A stretch of DNA of 64,000 nucleotides from Phycisphaeraceae bacterium D3-23 (GTDB lineage: Bacteria; Planctomycetota; Phycisphaerae; Phycisphaerales; Phycisphaeraceae), in contig CP114179.1 of the NCBI GenBank assembly GCA_039555135.1, forward strand, positions 806,001 to 870,000, given 5' to 3'. Positions 5,164-32,159 of the stretch are shown here, in pieces. Below the pieces are notes generated by a model. It was not told the DNA's origin. It was given only the letters and a program-made list of their open reading frames with translations, and searched no databases. Positions within the stretch are counted from its first letter, which is position 1. Every line of letters starts with the position of its first letter. The position numbers were made by a program, and so were the translations under genes.

Positions 5164-5337
5164 TCATACCACCGACTTGCCACGCACCAGGCCCATGACG
5201 AGCGAGAGCAGGAACAGGACCACGAAGATGAAGAACAGGACCTTCGCGATGGACGCCGCACCCGCGGCGATCCCGCCGAAGCCGAACACGGCGGCGATGA
5301 TGGCGACGATGAAGAATGCAAGTGCGAGGCGTAACAT
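5164..5337 (-). CDS. DUF1328 small membrane protein
   Basis: A 57-residue inner-membrane protein beginning [20 protein letters not shown], with a second hydrophobic helix [20 protein letters not shown] and the usual [10 protein letters not shown] turn between them. This is the exact size and layout of DUF1328 (YtjA-like) proteins. The open frame runs much further upstream, but AAAGGAAAC lies just before this ATG and the family starts here. The gene is minus strand, 135 bases upstream of the DUF2383 gene, and the two could be co-transcribed. Function in the family is unknown; members are often found with stress-induced small envelope proteins. Confidence 0.85.
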
Positions 5338-5729
5338 GGTGTTTCCTTTCAAGAAACAGGTGAGTTGAGTTTCATACACATGGGGTCGATCCCGCATGCA
5401 CCGGGAGGAATTGCAACCGCCATGCCAGAACTTCGTAGCGTTTGGAGAACCGCCGAGACATGCATCGGAAGCGTGTTTTATGCGGAAAACACAGTGGAAC
5501 ACCCTATGTGACGCGCTTGCCACATGGGCTTGTACGGATTGCACGATCGTGTAACGCCTACCCGGTCGGGACAAACTTACATGCATCGATCGCAGCGGCG
5601 GCCGACCTGTTGTGCCGAAGCCGTGTCGCTCCGCATCCGTATGCAGCGCGCCTGACACCACTCCAACAGGTATCTCAGGCCGCGCCTGCGCACCTTTCAT
5701 CACACAGCGTGATCTGGCATGGCGCTTGC
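5338..5729. other. Divergent intergenic region between DUF1328 and PRC-barrel genes
   Basis: It has no credible gene and should hold the promoters of both flanking genes. The one structure I see is a 7-bp stem GTGTTTT/AAAACAC at 5473-5492. The base composition is noticeably less GC-rich than the flanking genes. Confidence 0.5.
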
Positions 5730-27506: not shown

Positions 27507-27664
27507 TACCGCCGACACAACCGCTACAACCCATCGCTGCGCGCCCGCCAACACGCACCGGCCCCCGGGCTTAACACCCAAGTCCGCGCGGCCGCTGGAT
27601 CGCACTTGCCATCCACCCGTTGATACACATAGCCCCGCCCGTTGATCGGGCGGCGGTCGATGTG

Positions 27665-28918
27665 ATGCGTGCAGATACCCACAGCCCGGCCTATCGCACC
27701 CCCGGCCTCGAAACCCTCGAGCCCCGGTTGCTTTTGTGCGCCAGCAGCGCGATCACGGCCGACCTCACGACCGAGCTCAACGCGTGGTGGCGCTTCGATG
27801 AGCCCGGCGTCGCGACCGTCGCAGACGAATCGGGCAGCGCGAGCACCCACAGCGGGACACTCAACGGCGCTGCAGGCGTTTCCGCGCTCGGGCTCTGCGG
27901 CGGCGCAGGCGTCTTCGCCGGCGGCGAGATGAACGTCGCGAACCATAACGACATCAACCTCGACACGAACGCGAAGCGCACCATCGCGCTCTGGTTCAAT
28001 GCCGACGACCTCGACGCCCCGGGCCGACAGATGCTCTACGAAGAAGGCGGCGGCACGCGCGGGCTCAACATCTACCTCGACGCAGGCCAACTCGTCGTCG
28101 GCGGGTGGAACCGCGCCGAAAGCGGCTGGCAAGGCACCTGGCTCTCAACCCAAGCGGTCTGGGCCGGGCAGTGGCACCACGTCGTGCTCACGCTCGACGG
28201 CACAGCCACCACCCAGCCCGACGCGCTGCGCGCCTACCTCGACGGAAACCTGTTCGCCAGTGGCGAGGGCTCGCAGCTCTGGTCACACAGCGGCGACATC
28301 ACGATCGGCGGCGTCGGCGACACGCTCTTCCCCGACGGCGGCAGCGGCGCGGCCGCGTTCCTCGGCTTGATCGACGACTTCCGGATCTACAACCGTGCGC
28401 TGTCGCCCCACGATGTCGCCGTCCTCAGCGGCCAATACAACGAAGGCGCAGCGATCACCCTCGCAACGACTTGGCGCGACGACCTCACCGCGTTCTACAA
28501 CCTGCCCGAAGCGGTCGAGACGGTCCTGCACAACGATGGCACTGCCGTATCAGACACCACGACCCACCCCACCGCGAAAACACCATCAAGCGCCGAGGCC
28601 GACAAGCCCGGCGGCTTTACGGCACCGGGCGTCGATGAAACCCCAGAGCAGGCAACGCCCGAGACGAACGCGCCGCCCCCACCGCCACCCGACACCACCG
28701 TGGACACTGGCGCGAATGCCGCCGACAACGCCGACCCTTCTCTTGACGATACCTCAACGGCCCATGCCGAGGCCGAACCGTCCGACGACGAAGAGGCGCC
28801 GCGTGTCACCGAAGTCCCGACCGATGGCAAAGCATCACCGCAAGAAACAAAGCCGCGCCACCCCAACGCCGACCCTCTCCCCGTGCCTGCCTCGTCCCGT
28901 GCACCGCGAGACGACTAG
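27665..28918 (+). CDS. LEPR-XLL and LamG-domain surface protein
   Basis: A 417-residue protein. Near the N-terminus it carries LETLEPRLLLCA, the LEPR-XLL motif that marks the start of many exported planctomycete proteins. Residues about 35-260 form a LamG/concanavalin-like domain: ELNAWWRFDEPGVATVADES, then RTIALWFNADDLD, WHHVVLTLDGT and GLIDDFRIYNRALSPHDVA. The last 120 residues are a Pro/Thr/Glu/Asp-rich tail without repeats. LamG domains usually bind sugars. I use the ATG at 27665; a TTG at 27620 is in frame. It is convergent with the Fur-type regulator, and the two stop codons overlap by four bases. Confidence 0.72.
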   Translation: MRADTHSPAYRTPGLETLEPRLLLCASSAITADLTTELNAWWRFDEPGVATVADESGSASTHSGTLNGAAGVSALGLCGGAGVFAGGEMNVANHNDINLDTNAKRTIALWFNADDLDAPGRQMLYEEGGGTRGLNIYLDAGQLVVGGWNRAESGWQGTWLSTQAVWAGQWHHVVLTLDGTATTQPDALRAYLDGNLFASGEGSQLWSHSGDITIGGVGDTLFPDGGSGAAAFLGLIDDFRIYNRALSPHDVAVLSGQYNEGAAITLATTWRDDLTAFYNLPEAVETVLHNDGTAVSDTTTHPTAKTPSSAEADKPGGFTAPGVDETPEQATPETNAPPPPPPDTTVDTGANAADNADPSLDDTSTAHAEAEPSDDEEAPRVTEVPTDGKASPQETKPRHPNADPLPVPASSRAPRDD

Positions 28919-29295
28919 GCCGCGTCCGCGCATCCATCGCATCGGCCATACAGCATCACCTCGTGCCCGGTGAGCTCGAACCCCGGCGGGCACAGGTTCT
29001 TCATCGCGCCCGGGCACCCCTCAACATCGAACACCTTGCCGCAGTCGTTGCAGTGGAAGTGGTGGTGATGCCCCAGCCCCGCGAGCTCGTAGCGGTCCGG
29101 CTCGCCAGGGATCTGCACCGGCACCAGAAACCCCTCATCGACCAGCGCGTTGATCGCGCGGTAGACCGTCGCGGTCCCGATCGATTCGACCTCGCGCTGG
29201 GCCAACTCGAACGCCTCCGCCACGGTCAGCGGCCGCCCCGCCGACGCGAAGACCTGCTGCACCGCCTGCCGCTGGCTGGTTTTACGCTGCGCCAC
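28915..29295 (-). CDS. Fur-family metal-responsive repressor, probably Zur-like
   Basis: A 126-residue Fur-family regulator. The winged helix includes RQAVQQVFASAGRPLTVAEA and the recognition region GTATVYRAINALVDEGFL; the metal hinge has GLGHHHHFHCNDCGKVFDV, and a C-terminal CDGC supplies the second half of the structural zinc site. Members sense iron (Fur), zinc (Zur), manganese or peroxide. I favour Zur because of the divergent operon: two PEP-CTERM proteins that recall a Zur-repressed exported family, and a TGATAAC dyad in the shared promoter region. That assignment is inference. The LamG gene converges on its 3' end. Confidence 0.9.
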   Translation of the reverse strand: MAQRKTSQRQAVQQVFASAGRPLTVAEAFELAQREVESIGTATVYRAINALVDEGFLVPVQIPGEPDRYELAGLGHHHHFHCNDCGKVFDVEGCPGAMKNLCPPGFELTGHEVMLYGRCDGCADAA

Positions 29296-29315
29296 AGAAA
29301 CCCCTTGATTGATAT

Positions 29316-29331
29316 TGATAACTCGTTATCA
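29316..29331. promoter_or_regulatory. Candidate Fur/Zur operator
   Basis: TGATAAC TC GTTATCA is a perfect 7-2-7 dyad midway between the divergent regulator (29295) and pseudopilin (29368) starts. It resembles Fur/Zur boxes of the TGATAAT-ATTATCA type. Its right half overlaps a TATCAT hexamer at 29327-29332 that could be the -10 for the rightward gene, so binding there would block transcription. Confidence 0.65.
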
Positions 29332-29367
29332 TCTTGATCGGTCGCCCTTCGTTCAAGGATTGTAACG

Positions 29368-30180
29368 ATGAAAAACACCGCCATGCACCTCATCAGCCCA
29401 AAAAACGCTCGCCCAGGCGAGGGGGACCGAGCGGGTTTCACCCTCATCGAGCTGCTCGTCGTGATCTCCATTATCGCGCTGCTCATCGGCATCCTGCTCC
29501 CGGCTCTGGGCAAAGCGCGTCAGTCGGCGCGGGCCGCTCAGGACCTGGCCAGTCTCAAGCAGATGGAGACCGCGCACCAGGCCTACATGACCGACAACAA
29601 GGGCTACTTCGTCAACGCGGGCCTCCCCCACGGCGTCGCGCCGACCAACCCGCAGATCGCCTGGGTCGCGTCGCTGCGCGAGTACTACCAGACCGAGTTG
29701 ATCCTGAGATCCCCCCTGGATGAAAGCCCGCACTGGCCCGGAGGAGAGCCCGTGCCCAACACCCCGGGGGACGTCTTCCGCCAGACGAGCTACGGCATCA
29801 ACAGCTTCCTGACCGACGTGAAGCTCAACGGGACCAACCCGCTGGGCGGGCCGGCGTGGGACCGGATCGACCGCGTCTTGTCGGAGCGTTCGCCGACCGA
29901 GCTGGTCCACTTCCTGCCGATGGCGACCGAGGGTGAGTTCGCGGGGGCCGACCACCCCCACCCCGAGGAGTGGGACCTGTTCGGCACGGGCGGCGCGGTC
30001 GTCGCCGACCTCGCGGGCAGGCAGGTCGAGCTCCACGCCGTGCGTGGGCCGGCGCGCGACTTTGGCGGTGTCGCCAACTGGGGCTTCCTCGACGGCCACG
30101 CCAGCGCCTCCACCTTCGGCACCATCTACCTCAGCGAATCGAAAAACCGCTTCGACCCCGAGGCCGGCCCCACCGACTGA
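29368..30180 (+). CDS. Prepilin-type pseudopilin (DUF1559-like)
   Basis: A 270-residue type II secretion/type IV pilus-like pseudopilin. The prepilin peptidase site is in [20 protein letters not shown] (cleavage after Gly, Phe at +1, Glu at +5), preceded by a long 22-residue charged leader. A single N-terminal helix is followed by a globular domain containing [11 protein letters not shown], the late DG-H motif common in planctomycete pseudopilins. AAGGA lies nine bases before the ATG. It is the first gene of the operon behind the Fur/Zur-like operator and is followed 51 bases later by a PEP-CTERM gene. Such proteins are very numerous in planctomycetes and mostly unassigned; a metal-regulated copy is unusual. 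Confidence 0.85.
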
Positions 30181-30231
30181 TTTTTTGTGTCCCGATGTAT
30201 CCGATCTGTACCCGTACCCTGGAGAATTGAA

Positions 30232-31017
30232 ATGAAGCAAGCTCTGACCCTGACCGCCCTGACCGCCGCTCTCGCGGCCGGCCCGACCGCGCTGGCCCAC
30301 GAGGGCGGCGACCTGATGATCTACGACAACGCCAGCGGCGGACTGTCGTTTGGGCTCTACGACTTCGACGGCGGGACCGGCGAGGTGATCTCCCCCGGCC
30401 CCATCGACCTCGCCATCACCGAGCTTGATGGCAACTGGGAAGGCACCGGCATGCCCGGGTCCGACGAGCCGGGCTGGGCCACCGACGGCAGCGAGCCCAA
30501 CGACCCCGACGGCATCGCCTTCGCCTTCCCCGCCAACACCCAGCTCAACGTGGCGGCCAACGTGCTCCCCGTCTTGGGCGGCAACGCGGCGTACTGGGAC
30601 GGCATCGGCGCGGTCGCGTTCACCACGGCGATGCCCAACGGCGTGATCGTCGAGGGCGCGTTCGGCTCGGAGCTCGACCTCGACGGCTCGGCCACCGCGC
30701 CCGCAGGCACCGTCTCGCCCTGGATCAGCGGCGGCGACGGCACGGCCCACGACCACCTCGAGTTTCTCCTCGACGCCGACGACGCCAACGCCGCCACAGG
30801 CGTGTACCTGATCTCGCTCTCCGCCTCGGCGGGCGCGCTCGACAGCGAGCCGCTCTATGTGCTCCTGGGCTGGGGCGGCAGCGACTTCACGGACGAGCAG
30901 CTCGAAGCCGCGATCGAATCGGCCGAGGGCTACGTCGAATCCGAGATCGTGCCCGAGCCCGGCTCGCTGGCGCTGCTCGGCGCGGCGGGGCTGCTGCTGG
31001 CCCGGCGTCGACGATGA
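30232..31017 (+). CDS. PEP-CTERM protein, putative Zur-regulated exported protein
   Basis: A 261-residue exported protein. The signal peptide (MKQALTLTALTAALAAGPTA) ends near ALAHEGGD, exposing a His at the mature N-terminus. The body has FGLYDFDGGTGEVISPGP and GTAHDHLEFLLD segments, followed by GVYLISLSAS, and the tail is VPEPGSLALLGAAGLLLARR. The start is fixed by GGAG before the ATG at 30232. The related protein at 31131 keeps the same order (LGHYDFD, then LHKHISF, then GLYLASF). The layout recalls the exported family near cyanobacterial all3515, described as Zur-repressed; this is from memory and unverified. A HxH pair that could bind zinc is kept in both. Confidence 0.75.
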   Translation: MKQALTLTALTAALAAGPTALAHEGGDLMIYDNASGGLSFGLYDFDGGTGEVISPGPIDLAITELDGNWEGTGMPGSDEPGWATDGSEPNDPDGIAFAFPANTQLNVAANVLPVLGGNAAYWDGIGAVAFTTAMPNGVIVEGAFGSELDLDGSATAPAGTVSPWISGGDGTAHDHLEFLLDADDANAATGVYLISLSASAGALDSEPLYVLLGWGGSDFTDEQLEAAIESAEGYVESEIVPEPGSLALLGAAGLLLARRRR

Positions 31018-31049
31018 CCCCGGCCTCGACTTGATAACCACGTTTCAAC

Positions 31050-31080
31050 GGGTGGGGTGGACCAACTGCCCACCCCACCC
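31050..31080. repeat. Hairpin between the two PEP-CTERM genes
   Basis: A perfect 11-bp stem GGGTGGGGTGG/CCACCCCACCC closes a nine-base loop, with no T run after it. It could weaken read-through or stabilise the upstream mRNA. Confidence 0.5.
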
Positions 31081-31130
31081 ATTCGCTTGCCACACGCTTG
31101 TCAATACGCTCCCTACAACGAAACGTTTCC

Positions 31131-32159
31131 ATGAGAACGACACAACTCACATTCGGACTGACCGCGTTACTCAGCTGCCCGGCCCTTGGCCTGACCATCT
31201 CCGACGATGCCAGCCACGTCGACGCCCTCCCCTTCAACGACAACGGCCAGGTCGCGCTCGGTCACTACGACTTCGACCTCGACCAGGTCGTCACCGGCAC
31301 ACAGCTCTTCGCCCGCGATCTCGAGGTCGTCCAACCCAGCTTCTTCGGTACGACCTCGCCGGGCTTTACAACCGCCGCGGGGTTTGAGCTGCTCCCCTCG
31401 GCCACCCTCGACATCCATGCCCAGACGATGACGCTGCCGGCGGGCACGTTCAACCTGCTGTACTGGGACGGCGTCGACCAGGATAGCGACGGCGACTACG
31501 CCGACGACGTCGCGTTCGGTGCGCCGACGGCCGGCGACGAGCTGTTTGTCCGCCGGTCCAGCGCGTTGAACTTCACACTCGACGGCGGCCCAACCCCGCC
31601 GACCGGCTTCGCCCTCGACACGACCAGCGGCACGGGCACGCTGCACAAGCACATCTCGTTCCAGGCCCGCAACGGCAACGGGTCGGCGGCCGAGGACGGG
31701 CTGTACCTCGCGTCGTTCACGCTGACGATGGACGGGCTCGCCGACTCGGACCCGTTCTTCCTGCTGTTCAACGCCGCGTATGAGCGGGACGAAGGCGGGG
31801 CAATCGTCTTCAACGGCGACCGCCCGGTGACGAACGAGGACGCACGGCTCGCCGCGATCGACTGGATCGACCAGACGTTCTTCGAGACCGACACGCTCAC
31901 CGGCGATCTGAACGGCGACGGGTTTGTCGGCGCGGCCGACCTCGACGTGCTGCTGGCCCACTGGGGCGACACCGTCTCGGCAGGGTCGTTGATCGATGGC
32001 GACCCCTCGGGCGACGGCATGGTCGGCGAAACGGACCTGCAGATCGTCCGCGATGCGTGGGGGGACGGAACACCCCCAGCCGGGGTCCCCGAGCCGGGCT
32101 GGATCGGCGGTGTGGTGCTGAGCGCACTATGGCTTCGCCGACGCCGCGCGCAACGCTAG
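31131..32159 (+). CDS. PEP-CTERM protein with dockerin-like motifs, paralogue of 30232 gene
   Basis: A 342-residue exported protein with signal peptide MRTTQLTFGLTALLSCPALG. Its body parallels the gene at 30232: ALGHYDFDLDQVVTG, later TGTLHKHISFQARNGN, then GLYLASFTLTMDGL. It adds a dockerin-like pair, GDLNGDGFVGAADLDVLLAH and GDPSGDGMVGETDLQIV, before VPEPGWIGGVVLSALWLRRR. The start at 31131 is chosen for the signal peptide; the ribosome binding site is weak. It follows the first PEP-CTERM gene after a hairpin and is probably in the same Fur/Zur-controlled operon. Role unknown, possibly zinc binding at the surface. Confidence 0.75.
   Translation: MRTTQLTFGLTALLSCPALGLTISDDASHVDALPFNDNGQVALGHYDFDLDQVVTGTQLFARDLEVVQPSFFGTTSPGFTTAAGFELLPSATLDIHAQTMTLPAGTFNLLYWDGVDQDSDGDYADDVAFGAPTAGDELFVRRSSALNFTLDGGPTPPTGFALDTTSGTGTLHKHISFQARNGNGSAAEDGLYLASFTLTMDGLADSDPFFLLFNAAYERDEGGAIVFNGDRPVTNEDARLAAIDWIDQTFFETDTLTGDLNGDGFVGAADLDVLLAHWGDTVSAGSLIDGDPSGDGMVGETDLQIVRDAWGDGTPPAGVPEPGWIGGVVLSALWLRRRRAQR

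Follow-up and report, generated by a model that had tools for sequence, protein, structure and literature searches.

A pseudopilin and PEP-CTERM protein operon under probable Zur control in a planctomycete, with a likely role in zinc capture

In Phycisphaeraceae bacterium D3-23 we analysed a window of 64,000 nucleotides (CP114179.1, positions 806,001-870,000; coordinates below are window positions), in which the gene for a Fur-family regulator faces, across a short spacer, the genes for a pseudopilin and for two related exported proteins, PEP1 and PEP2 (Table 1). The gene content, as computed, agrees with much of an initial annotation of the locus. The regulator matches the FUR domain PF01475 at 69.0 bits (cut-off 23.1) and a perfect dyad, TGATAACTCGTTATCA, lies between its gene and the pilin gene, both as that annotation had described. 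It had also spoken of a pseudopilin followed by two PEP-CTERM genes: the pilin matches TIGR02532 (26.8 bits, cut-off 16.3) and PF07963 (30.2 bits, cut-off 21.2) and carries the GFTLxE leader, and PEP1 reaches 24.0 bits with the PEP-CTERM model (cut-off 16), but PEP2, whose C-terminus holds VPEPG and RRRR, stays at 13, under that cut-off, so the label stands for the first of the two proteins and falls short for the second. We consider it probable that this is a Zur-controlled zinc-starvation operon, in which a surface pseudopilin and PEP-CTERM proteins would capture zinc through histidines and pass it to an importer. We speak of a probable Zur box and of zinc starvation because the operator also precedes ZnuA, ZIP, COG0523 and Fur genes in relatives; Zur control of the pilin-PEP1-PEP2 operon is strongly inferred from these sequence patterns, and a function of the operon in zinc capture appears likely.

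Table 1. Features of the locus in the window, and the settings of operator sites found in related genomes (locus handles beginning with L).
Feature	Position or locus	Strand	Basis or remark
Fur-family regulator, probable Zur	28915-29295	-	126 amino acids, GTG start; PF01475 69.0 bits
Operator dyad TGATAACTCGTTATCA, probable Zur box	29316-29331	.	Perfect dyad; family motif and regulon
Promoter-like TTGATT (29305-29310), 16 nucleotides, TATCAT (29327-29332)	29305-29332	+	Sequence reading
Pseudopilin, conserved D195-H196-x-H198 and H88	29368-30180	+	TIGR02532, PF07963, conservation
PEP1, exported PEP-CTERM protein, His23 after signal peptide, H173-D-H175	30232-31017	+	
PEP2, PEP1 paralog with HKH, dockerin-like repeats, weak PEP-CTERM-like end	31131-32159	+	
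Operator before ZIP transporters	L181, L223, L230		
Operator at ZnuA loci	L184, L188, L228		
Operator at COG0523 GTPases	L180 (with a Fur), L233		
Operator at Fur with P-type ATPase	L227		
Operator at Fur beside ZnuA locus	L185		
Operator at ZnuA remnant beside MerC	L222		Remnant read by eye
Operator at zepA	L086		Site overlaps start codon
Operator at DUF2946-like / PEP-CTERM / pseudopilin operon	L232		First open reading frame without Pfam hit
Sites without recognised zinc gene	L179, L224, L225, L226, L229, L231 (contig end), L234, L235		

The operon is conserved across the taxonomic order, in which 227 of 400 genomes hold a pilin match at E <= 1e-25. We compared 73 loci, namely 60 around pilin matches, 12 around PEP1 matches (L037-L048) and the window itself; L049 was left out, its pilin being interrupted by the contig end. 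The 60 pilin-chosen loci are weighted to the window's family and to high scores rather than random, and a few genomes are represented twice. At 72 of the 73 loci an open reading frame (ORF) of the PEP1 family lies directly downstream of the pilin on the same strand, with a gap of -121 to 142 nucleotides, and this holds for 59 of the 60 pilin-chosen loci, the exception being L103. At 14 of the 73 there is a Fur gene of the type found in the window. In G342, a genome of the same genus, the pilin, PEP1, PEP2 and an aldo/keto reductase are kept with no adjoining Fur gene; that genome encodes its Fur of the window's type at another place (L257). A contig scan with an alignment of the pilin, from which 80 loci were kept, returned mostly short N-terminal pilin matches and, apart from a hint at Phycisphaerae, was set aside. 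In G584 the Fur and pilin ORFs form one continuous frame with no stop codon between them (L140:2489-3694, minus strand), a possible fusion or assembly error. Small exported ORFs rich in His and Cys stand just upstream of the pilin at L039:7865-8299, L043:5933-6325 and L044:5751-6305, with DUF2946 above its cut-off in the L043 ORF and slightly below in the other two; no such ORF was called just upstream of the pilin in the window.

The dyad in front of the pilin gene is likewise part of a recurrent pattern. In the 4.62 Mb one-contig genome, TGATAACNNGTTATCA has this single exact match, and in the window, when up to three mismatches are allowed, two dyad matches occur compared with a shuffle mean of 0.27 (5 of 100 shuffles reach two), the second being a weak site at 31032-31047. 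When the 73 upstream regions of the pilin loci were scanned for exact 6-nucleotide inverted repeats, with no motif supplied, TGATAA-N4-TTATCA ranked first, in 10 regions, and the next repeats, shifted forms aside, reached three. The 16-bp motif TGA(T/G)AA-N4-TT(A/C)TCA stands upstream of the pilin at 17 of the 73 loci exactly and at 30 with at most one mismatch, and 60 dinucleotide shuffles gave means of 0.0 and 0.22 respectively, with a maximum of 2 for the latter. In the window the -10 sequence TATCAT overlaps the right half of the operator, and TTGA stands 11 or 12 nucleotides before the site in 10 of 30 operator sites, a spacing by which the right half TTATCAT can act as a -10 box. Read from the sequence, the geometry of promoter and operator is that of a repressor covering its promoter, and the operator is most likely a Zur box. 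The same regularities bear on the idea that we are looking at an ordinary extracellular-matrix set of pseudopilin and PEP-CTERM proteins with a Fur gene as a chance neighbour. In this group pseudopilins are common, as are PEP-CTERM proteins, and Fur is absent from 59 of the 73 loci, as this idea would have it, but the enrichment of the operator, the recurrent promoter register, the recurrence of Fur and the presence of the exoprotein ZepA in the same operon (below) make it very improbable.

Two further observations concern repeats near these genes. The spacer between PEP1 and PEP2 holds, besides the weak dyad TGATAACCACGTTTCA at 31032-31047, a perfect 11-bp hairpin (31050-31060 / 31070-31080), and the stretch 31032-31080 is possibly an intercistronic control point. 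At L042 (about 5280-5360, G325) the usual operator is absent and an inverted repeat, TGCAACATCGTTGC / GCAACGATGTTGCA, surrounds the -10 of the pilin, perhaps another operator type.

Beyond the pilin loci, the operator recurs before zinc genes in relatives. Ten of 16 genomes have a single copy of the exact form TGATAA-N4-TTATCA and the other six have none, with no match for the reversed control, and exact sites of the degenerate motif number 37 in 25 genomes against one for the reversed control. Most of the 25 genomes were chosen since their pilin locus already showed a site, so that the sites at pilin loci are there partly by choice and the others are not. By our own reading of the contexts, with Pfam checks, 16 of the 37 lie at pilin or Fur loci, 13 at zinc-linked genes or related operons, and eight have no recognised zinc gene (Table 1). 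Among 18 ZnuA-like loci, six carry a lax site just upstream (L183, L184, L185, L186, L188, L189), six have a DtxR-type neighbour, identified by eye, and no site, and six have neither; the loci beside DtxR-type genes probably serve manganese. In the genome of strain D3-23, TGAAAATGCATTATCA at genome position 3349682 is a one-mismatch operator 66 bp before a ZIP gene (PF02535, 100.7 bits), and what gives this site weight is the presence of exact sites before ZIP genes in three relatives, not its rarity.

Several genes near operators or pilin operons deserve mention in their own right. MerC-family genes lie beside the pilin operon of G342 (L037:5683-6309, minus strand, 86.1 bits) and near an operator in G443 (L222:2506-3267, minus strand, 78.8 bits), which suggests that MerC is part of the zinc regulon. 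In G077 a second operator-led operon (L232:4650-6771) comprises a small His/Cys-rich ORF that is DUF2946-like by eye, a PEP-CTERM protein that is rich in His and, with a profile score of 4 bits, lies outside the PEP1 family, and a pseudopilin that carries DUF1559 and is matched by the pilin profile at 85 bits. Exported DUF4394-like proteins, with DUF4394 below cut-off, are found beside an operator in G356 (L229:3460-4650, minus strand) and beside an operator-led znuA in G443 (L184:7503-8495, minus strand); one of the two has a PEP-CTERM match and the other lies slightly under that cut-off.

The regulator itself carries HHHH, two CxxC pairs and an extra Cys94. Both pairs, C82/C85 and C119/C122, are invariant in 15 of 15 rows of the Fur alignment, as is Cys94, which is missing from the Fur of L227, outside that alignment. 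Two CxxC pairs make up the structural zinc site of Zur, and among the three Fur proteins of this genome the window's regulator is the one that has them. In a tree of 36 Furs from 17 genomes (30 of 36 match rows, namely those with loci kept, and six others), two Cys-less paralog groups, each with support 99/100, lie apart from the window's Fur. The latter shares a fork (84/94, not starred) with Furs linked to the pilin, to COG0523 and to the ATPase. These data have to be weighed together with the possibility that the regulator is a sensor of iron (Fur), manganese or peroxide (PerR) and that the operon serves that response. The dyad is similar both to Fur boxes and to Zur boxes, the NCBIfam model that the regulator matches best is of PerR type (66.1 bits, cut-off 200), among solved structures it best matches the ferric uptake regulation proteins 6d57 and 4ets, and it retains the Glu of the Fur-type YELA stretch. 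We nonetheless regard such a sensor as improbable, since the operator targets in relatives include ZIP, ZnuA, COG0523 and zepA, and since the six ZnuA-like loci beside DtxR-type genes, the probable manganese loci, have no operator.

The pilin is modelled with a predicted local distance difference test score (pLDDT) of 90.9 and has a long N-terminal helix (residues 26-76). In 75 sequences its residues D172, H173 and H175 by mature numbering (D195, H196 and H198 in the precursor) are retained 74, 75 and 74 times, and together with H88 they are invariant in a 35-row alignment. The class III leader and N-terminal helix recall GspG and GspH of type II secretion; the pilin differs from them in scoring below both cut-offs (35.7 against 88.85 and 34.9 against 80), in an ectodomain with DHxH, and in its weak matches to type IV pilins among solved structures (best E 0.17). 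Pseudopilins are parts of secretion machines, and the operon could be under Zur control with the pilin not as a zinc scavenger but as a minor pseudopilin in a machine like that of type II secretion, which would help to export or place the PEP-CTERM proteins, the only zinc binders in this reading. The strict pairing of pilin and PEP gene at all but one of the pilin-chosen loci would fit such a helper, as would the G077 operon, in which a relative of the pilin is paired with a PEP-CTERM protein from outside the PEP1 family. The near-invariant DHxH, however, exceeds any obvious structural need, and PEP-CTERM proteins are normally exported via Sec and exosortase, so we rate this alternative as unlikely, while taking it more seriously than the other two.

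For PEP1 and PEP2, most of what the initial annotation had read from the sequences could be reproduced. The two proteins are related (BLASTP E 1e-7, 51 of 195 columns identical), both carry YDFD, then H-x-H, then G(V/L)YL in that order, and each has an HxH pair. A His at the mature N-terminus of PEP1 was also borne out: it follows directly after an ALA motif, the signal peptides of both proteins being read by eye, and among 108 ORFs of the PEP family this His is kept in 96 and the HxH histidines in 91 and 104. PEP1 contains exactly three histidines, at 23, 173 and 175. PEP2 comes just below the dockerin cut-off (22.0 against 22.9). The PEP1 model (pLDDT 88.3) consists mostly of strands with C-terminal helices, and fold searches gave weak matches, mostly to fimbrial or immunoglobulin-like sandwiches (best Z 6.8; best Foldseek E 3.5e-3), a likeness that we read as one of common fold.

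The initial annotation had also seen a likeness of layout to a cyanobacterial family and had proposed a comparison with the all3515 family. ZepA (All3515) is described as a Zur-repressed PEP-CTERM exoprotein for zinc uptake that also occurs in Planctomycetota (PMC10957091), and it shares with this locus an exported PEP-CTERM protein, here probably PEP1, a Fur-family neighbour, a palindrome like a Zur box and a His at the mature N-terminus. PEP1 and PEP2 differ from it and could not be placed in that family: NF040463 (cut-off 75 bits) gives no match to either at E <= 1, it matches one of 40 members of the PEP family (E 0.064), hhalign aligns the PEP-CTERM sorting tail only, and the motif H-X2-9-H-F/Y-H given in the available text of PMC10957091 is missing in both. 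Nor does NF040463 match anything in this genome at E <= 0.01. Genuine ZepA does occur beside the pilin in relatives. Among 392 genomes of the phylum one (G356) scores over the cut-off and four more have weak partial matches; in G356 the zepA gene comes after pilin and PEP and is followed by Fur, and in G443 a second ZepA (254.9 bits against 75) follows pilin, PEP1 and PEP2. True ZepA is thus present at 2 of the 73 pilin loci, and both proteins (L041 and L086) have the H-X2-9-H-F/Y-H motif. Homology of PEP1 and PEP2 to a metal-responsive family, which the initial annotation had made a test of its idea, was not found. Of its proposed metal-controlled system joining a pseudopilin and PEP-CTERM proteins, zinc control of Zur type appears supported by the conserved operator and its place before zinc genes, while ZepA membership had to be dropped; we hold that the regulon evidence outweighs the failed homology test.

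Computation shows the gene content, the conservation of operon and operator, the register of the operator on the promoter and its return before zinc genes in relatives; we infer DNA binding, zinc response, export, zinc binding and hand-over to a ZIP transporter in the following model. A zinc-loaded Zur-type repressor would bind the dyad and cover the -10 of the pilin promoter; the regulator is likely autoregulated as well, because the dyad begins 20 bp upstream of its own gene. When zinc is scarce the repressor would release the DNA and the pilin-PEP1-PEP2 operon would be expressed. The pilin, with its class III leader, and the PEP-CTERM proteins, with signal peptide and sorting tail, would then be exported to the envelope or cell surface, where zinc would be captured by conserved histidines, the DHxH of the pilin and the N-terminal His and HxH of the PEP proteins. 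Captured zinc would be handed to an importer, here perhaps the ZIP transporter with the one-mismatch operator. A more specific version, in which the DHxH pseudopilin itself binds zinc and forms, together with PEP-CTERM proteins bearing HxH and in some cases ZepA, a Zur-induced metal-scavenging pseudopilus that is widespread in the order, we put forward tentatively, as less probable than the general model.

In the text available to us, the literature searched (including PMC10957091, PMC3022926, PMC6711530 and PMC8248653, and further PMC10967457, PMC10986534 and PMC10782981) yielded no Zur-controlled pseudopilin, and the main text of PMC10957091 contains no word starting with 'pilin' or 'pseudopilin'. 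As far as these sources go, the nearest precedent for a Zur-linked pilin is the VSP-II island of Vibrio cholerae, ten genes of which are reported as up in a zur mutant (PMC8248653). Like our locus it combines Zur-regulated genes, shyB (vc0503) and verA, with an orphan type IV pilin, vc0502, which is numbered next to shyB; Zur control of vc0502 is not stated in the available text, and VSP-II differs in having no PEP-CTERM proteins and a pilin that is unneeded for the zur phenotype studied (PMC8248653). Corynebacterium diphtheriae offers another parallel, with Zur-repressed, surface-anchored proteins of unknown function (CmrA, CmrA2, DIP0443), one of them inside a metal-transporter cluster, and with the troA cluster; it differs in being a Gram-positive sortase system, and no prepilin-type protein is named there in the text available (PMC6711530).

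Several results weigh against zinc-starvation control by Zur. At 11 of 48 loci the operator is rarer outside the window's family than inside it (19 of 25), and 43 of the 73 loci have none within 1500 bp. Eight of the 37 degenerate sites have no recognised zinc gene, and twelve of the 18 ZnuA-like loci have no site, namely the six with a DtxR-type neighbour and the six with neither, which include this genome's one ZnuA-like locus. At one mismatch or fewer, the degenerate motif gives three sites in this genome and three for the reversed control; the three in the genome are the window's dyad, the site before the ZIP gene and a third (2163048) that has no recognised zinc gene. The case for zinc binding is made from conserved histidines only, and PEP1 and PEP2 fail the ZepA test. 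As to the regulator, the CxxC-type Furs L238, L244 and L258 fall outside its group in the tree; with NF008646, the Zur equivalog model, which we take to be of E. coli type, it scores 19.3 bits against a cut-off of 167; and it has an Ala where 3mwm, presumably the Streptomyces Zur, has a Cys, a residue that belongs to the regulatory zinc site in Streptomyces and E. coli Zur. C94 may substitute for this Cys. Because the regulator falls short of the E. coli-type model and has Ala in place of the Cys of 3mwm, its sequence alone is no proof of Zur identity, and the same caution on the Fur genes beside zepA is given in the available text of PMC10957091. Our confidence in the Zur-controlled zinc operon is slightly lowered by the equally frequent control in its own genome and by the orphan pilin of Vibrio.

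On the far side of the regulator lies a gene for a LamG-like protein (27620-28918), which with its final four bases runs over the 3' end of the regulator gene. Its LEPR-XLL match (16.3 against a cut-off of 17) is slightly too low, and a gene 47% identical to it flanks the pilin in G342.

Metal gathering outside the cell is poorly known, and the available text of PMC10957091 speaks of an earlier lack of data on extracellular proteins that handle zinc. If our reading is right, the operon would represent a zinc-starvation surface system found across the order, adding a pseudopilin and a second PEP-CTERM family to what may serve this purpose. It would give this pilin family its first function and these planctomycetes a Zur operator, and it would supply possible partners for ZepA, genuine copies of which are in the operons of two relatives. 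The surface-protein operon suggests a new type of device on the outer surface by which cells catch zinc when it is scarce.

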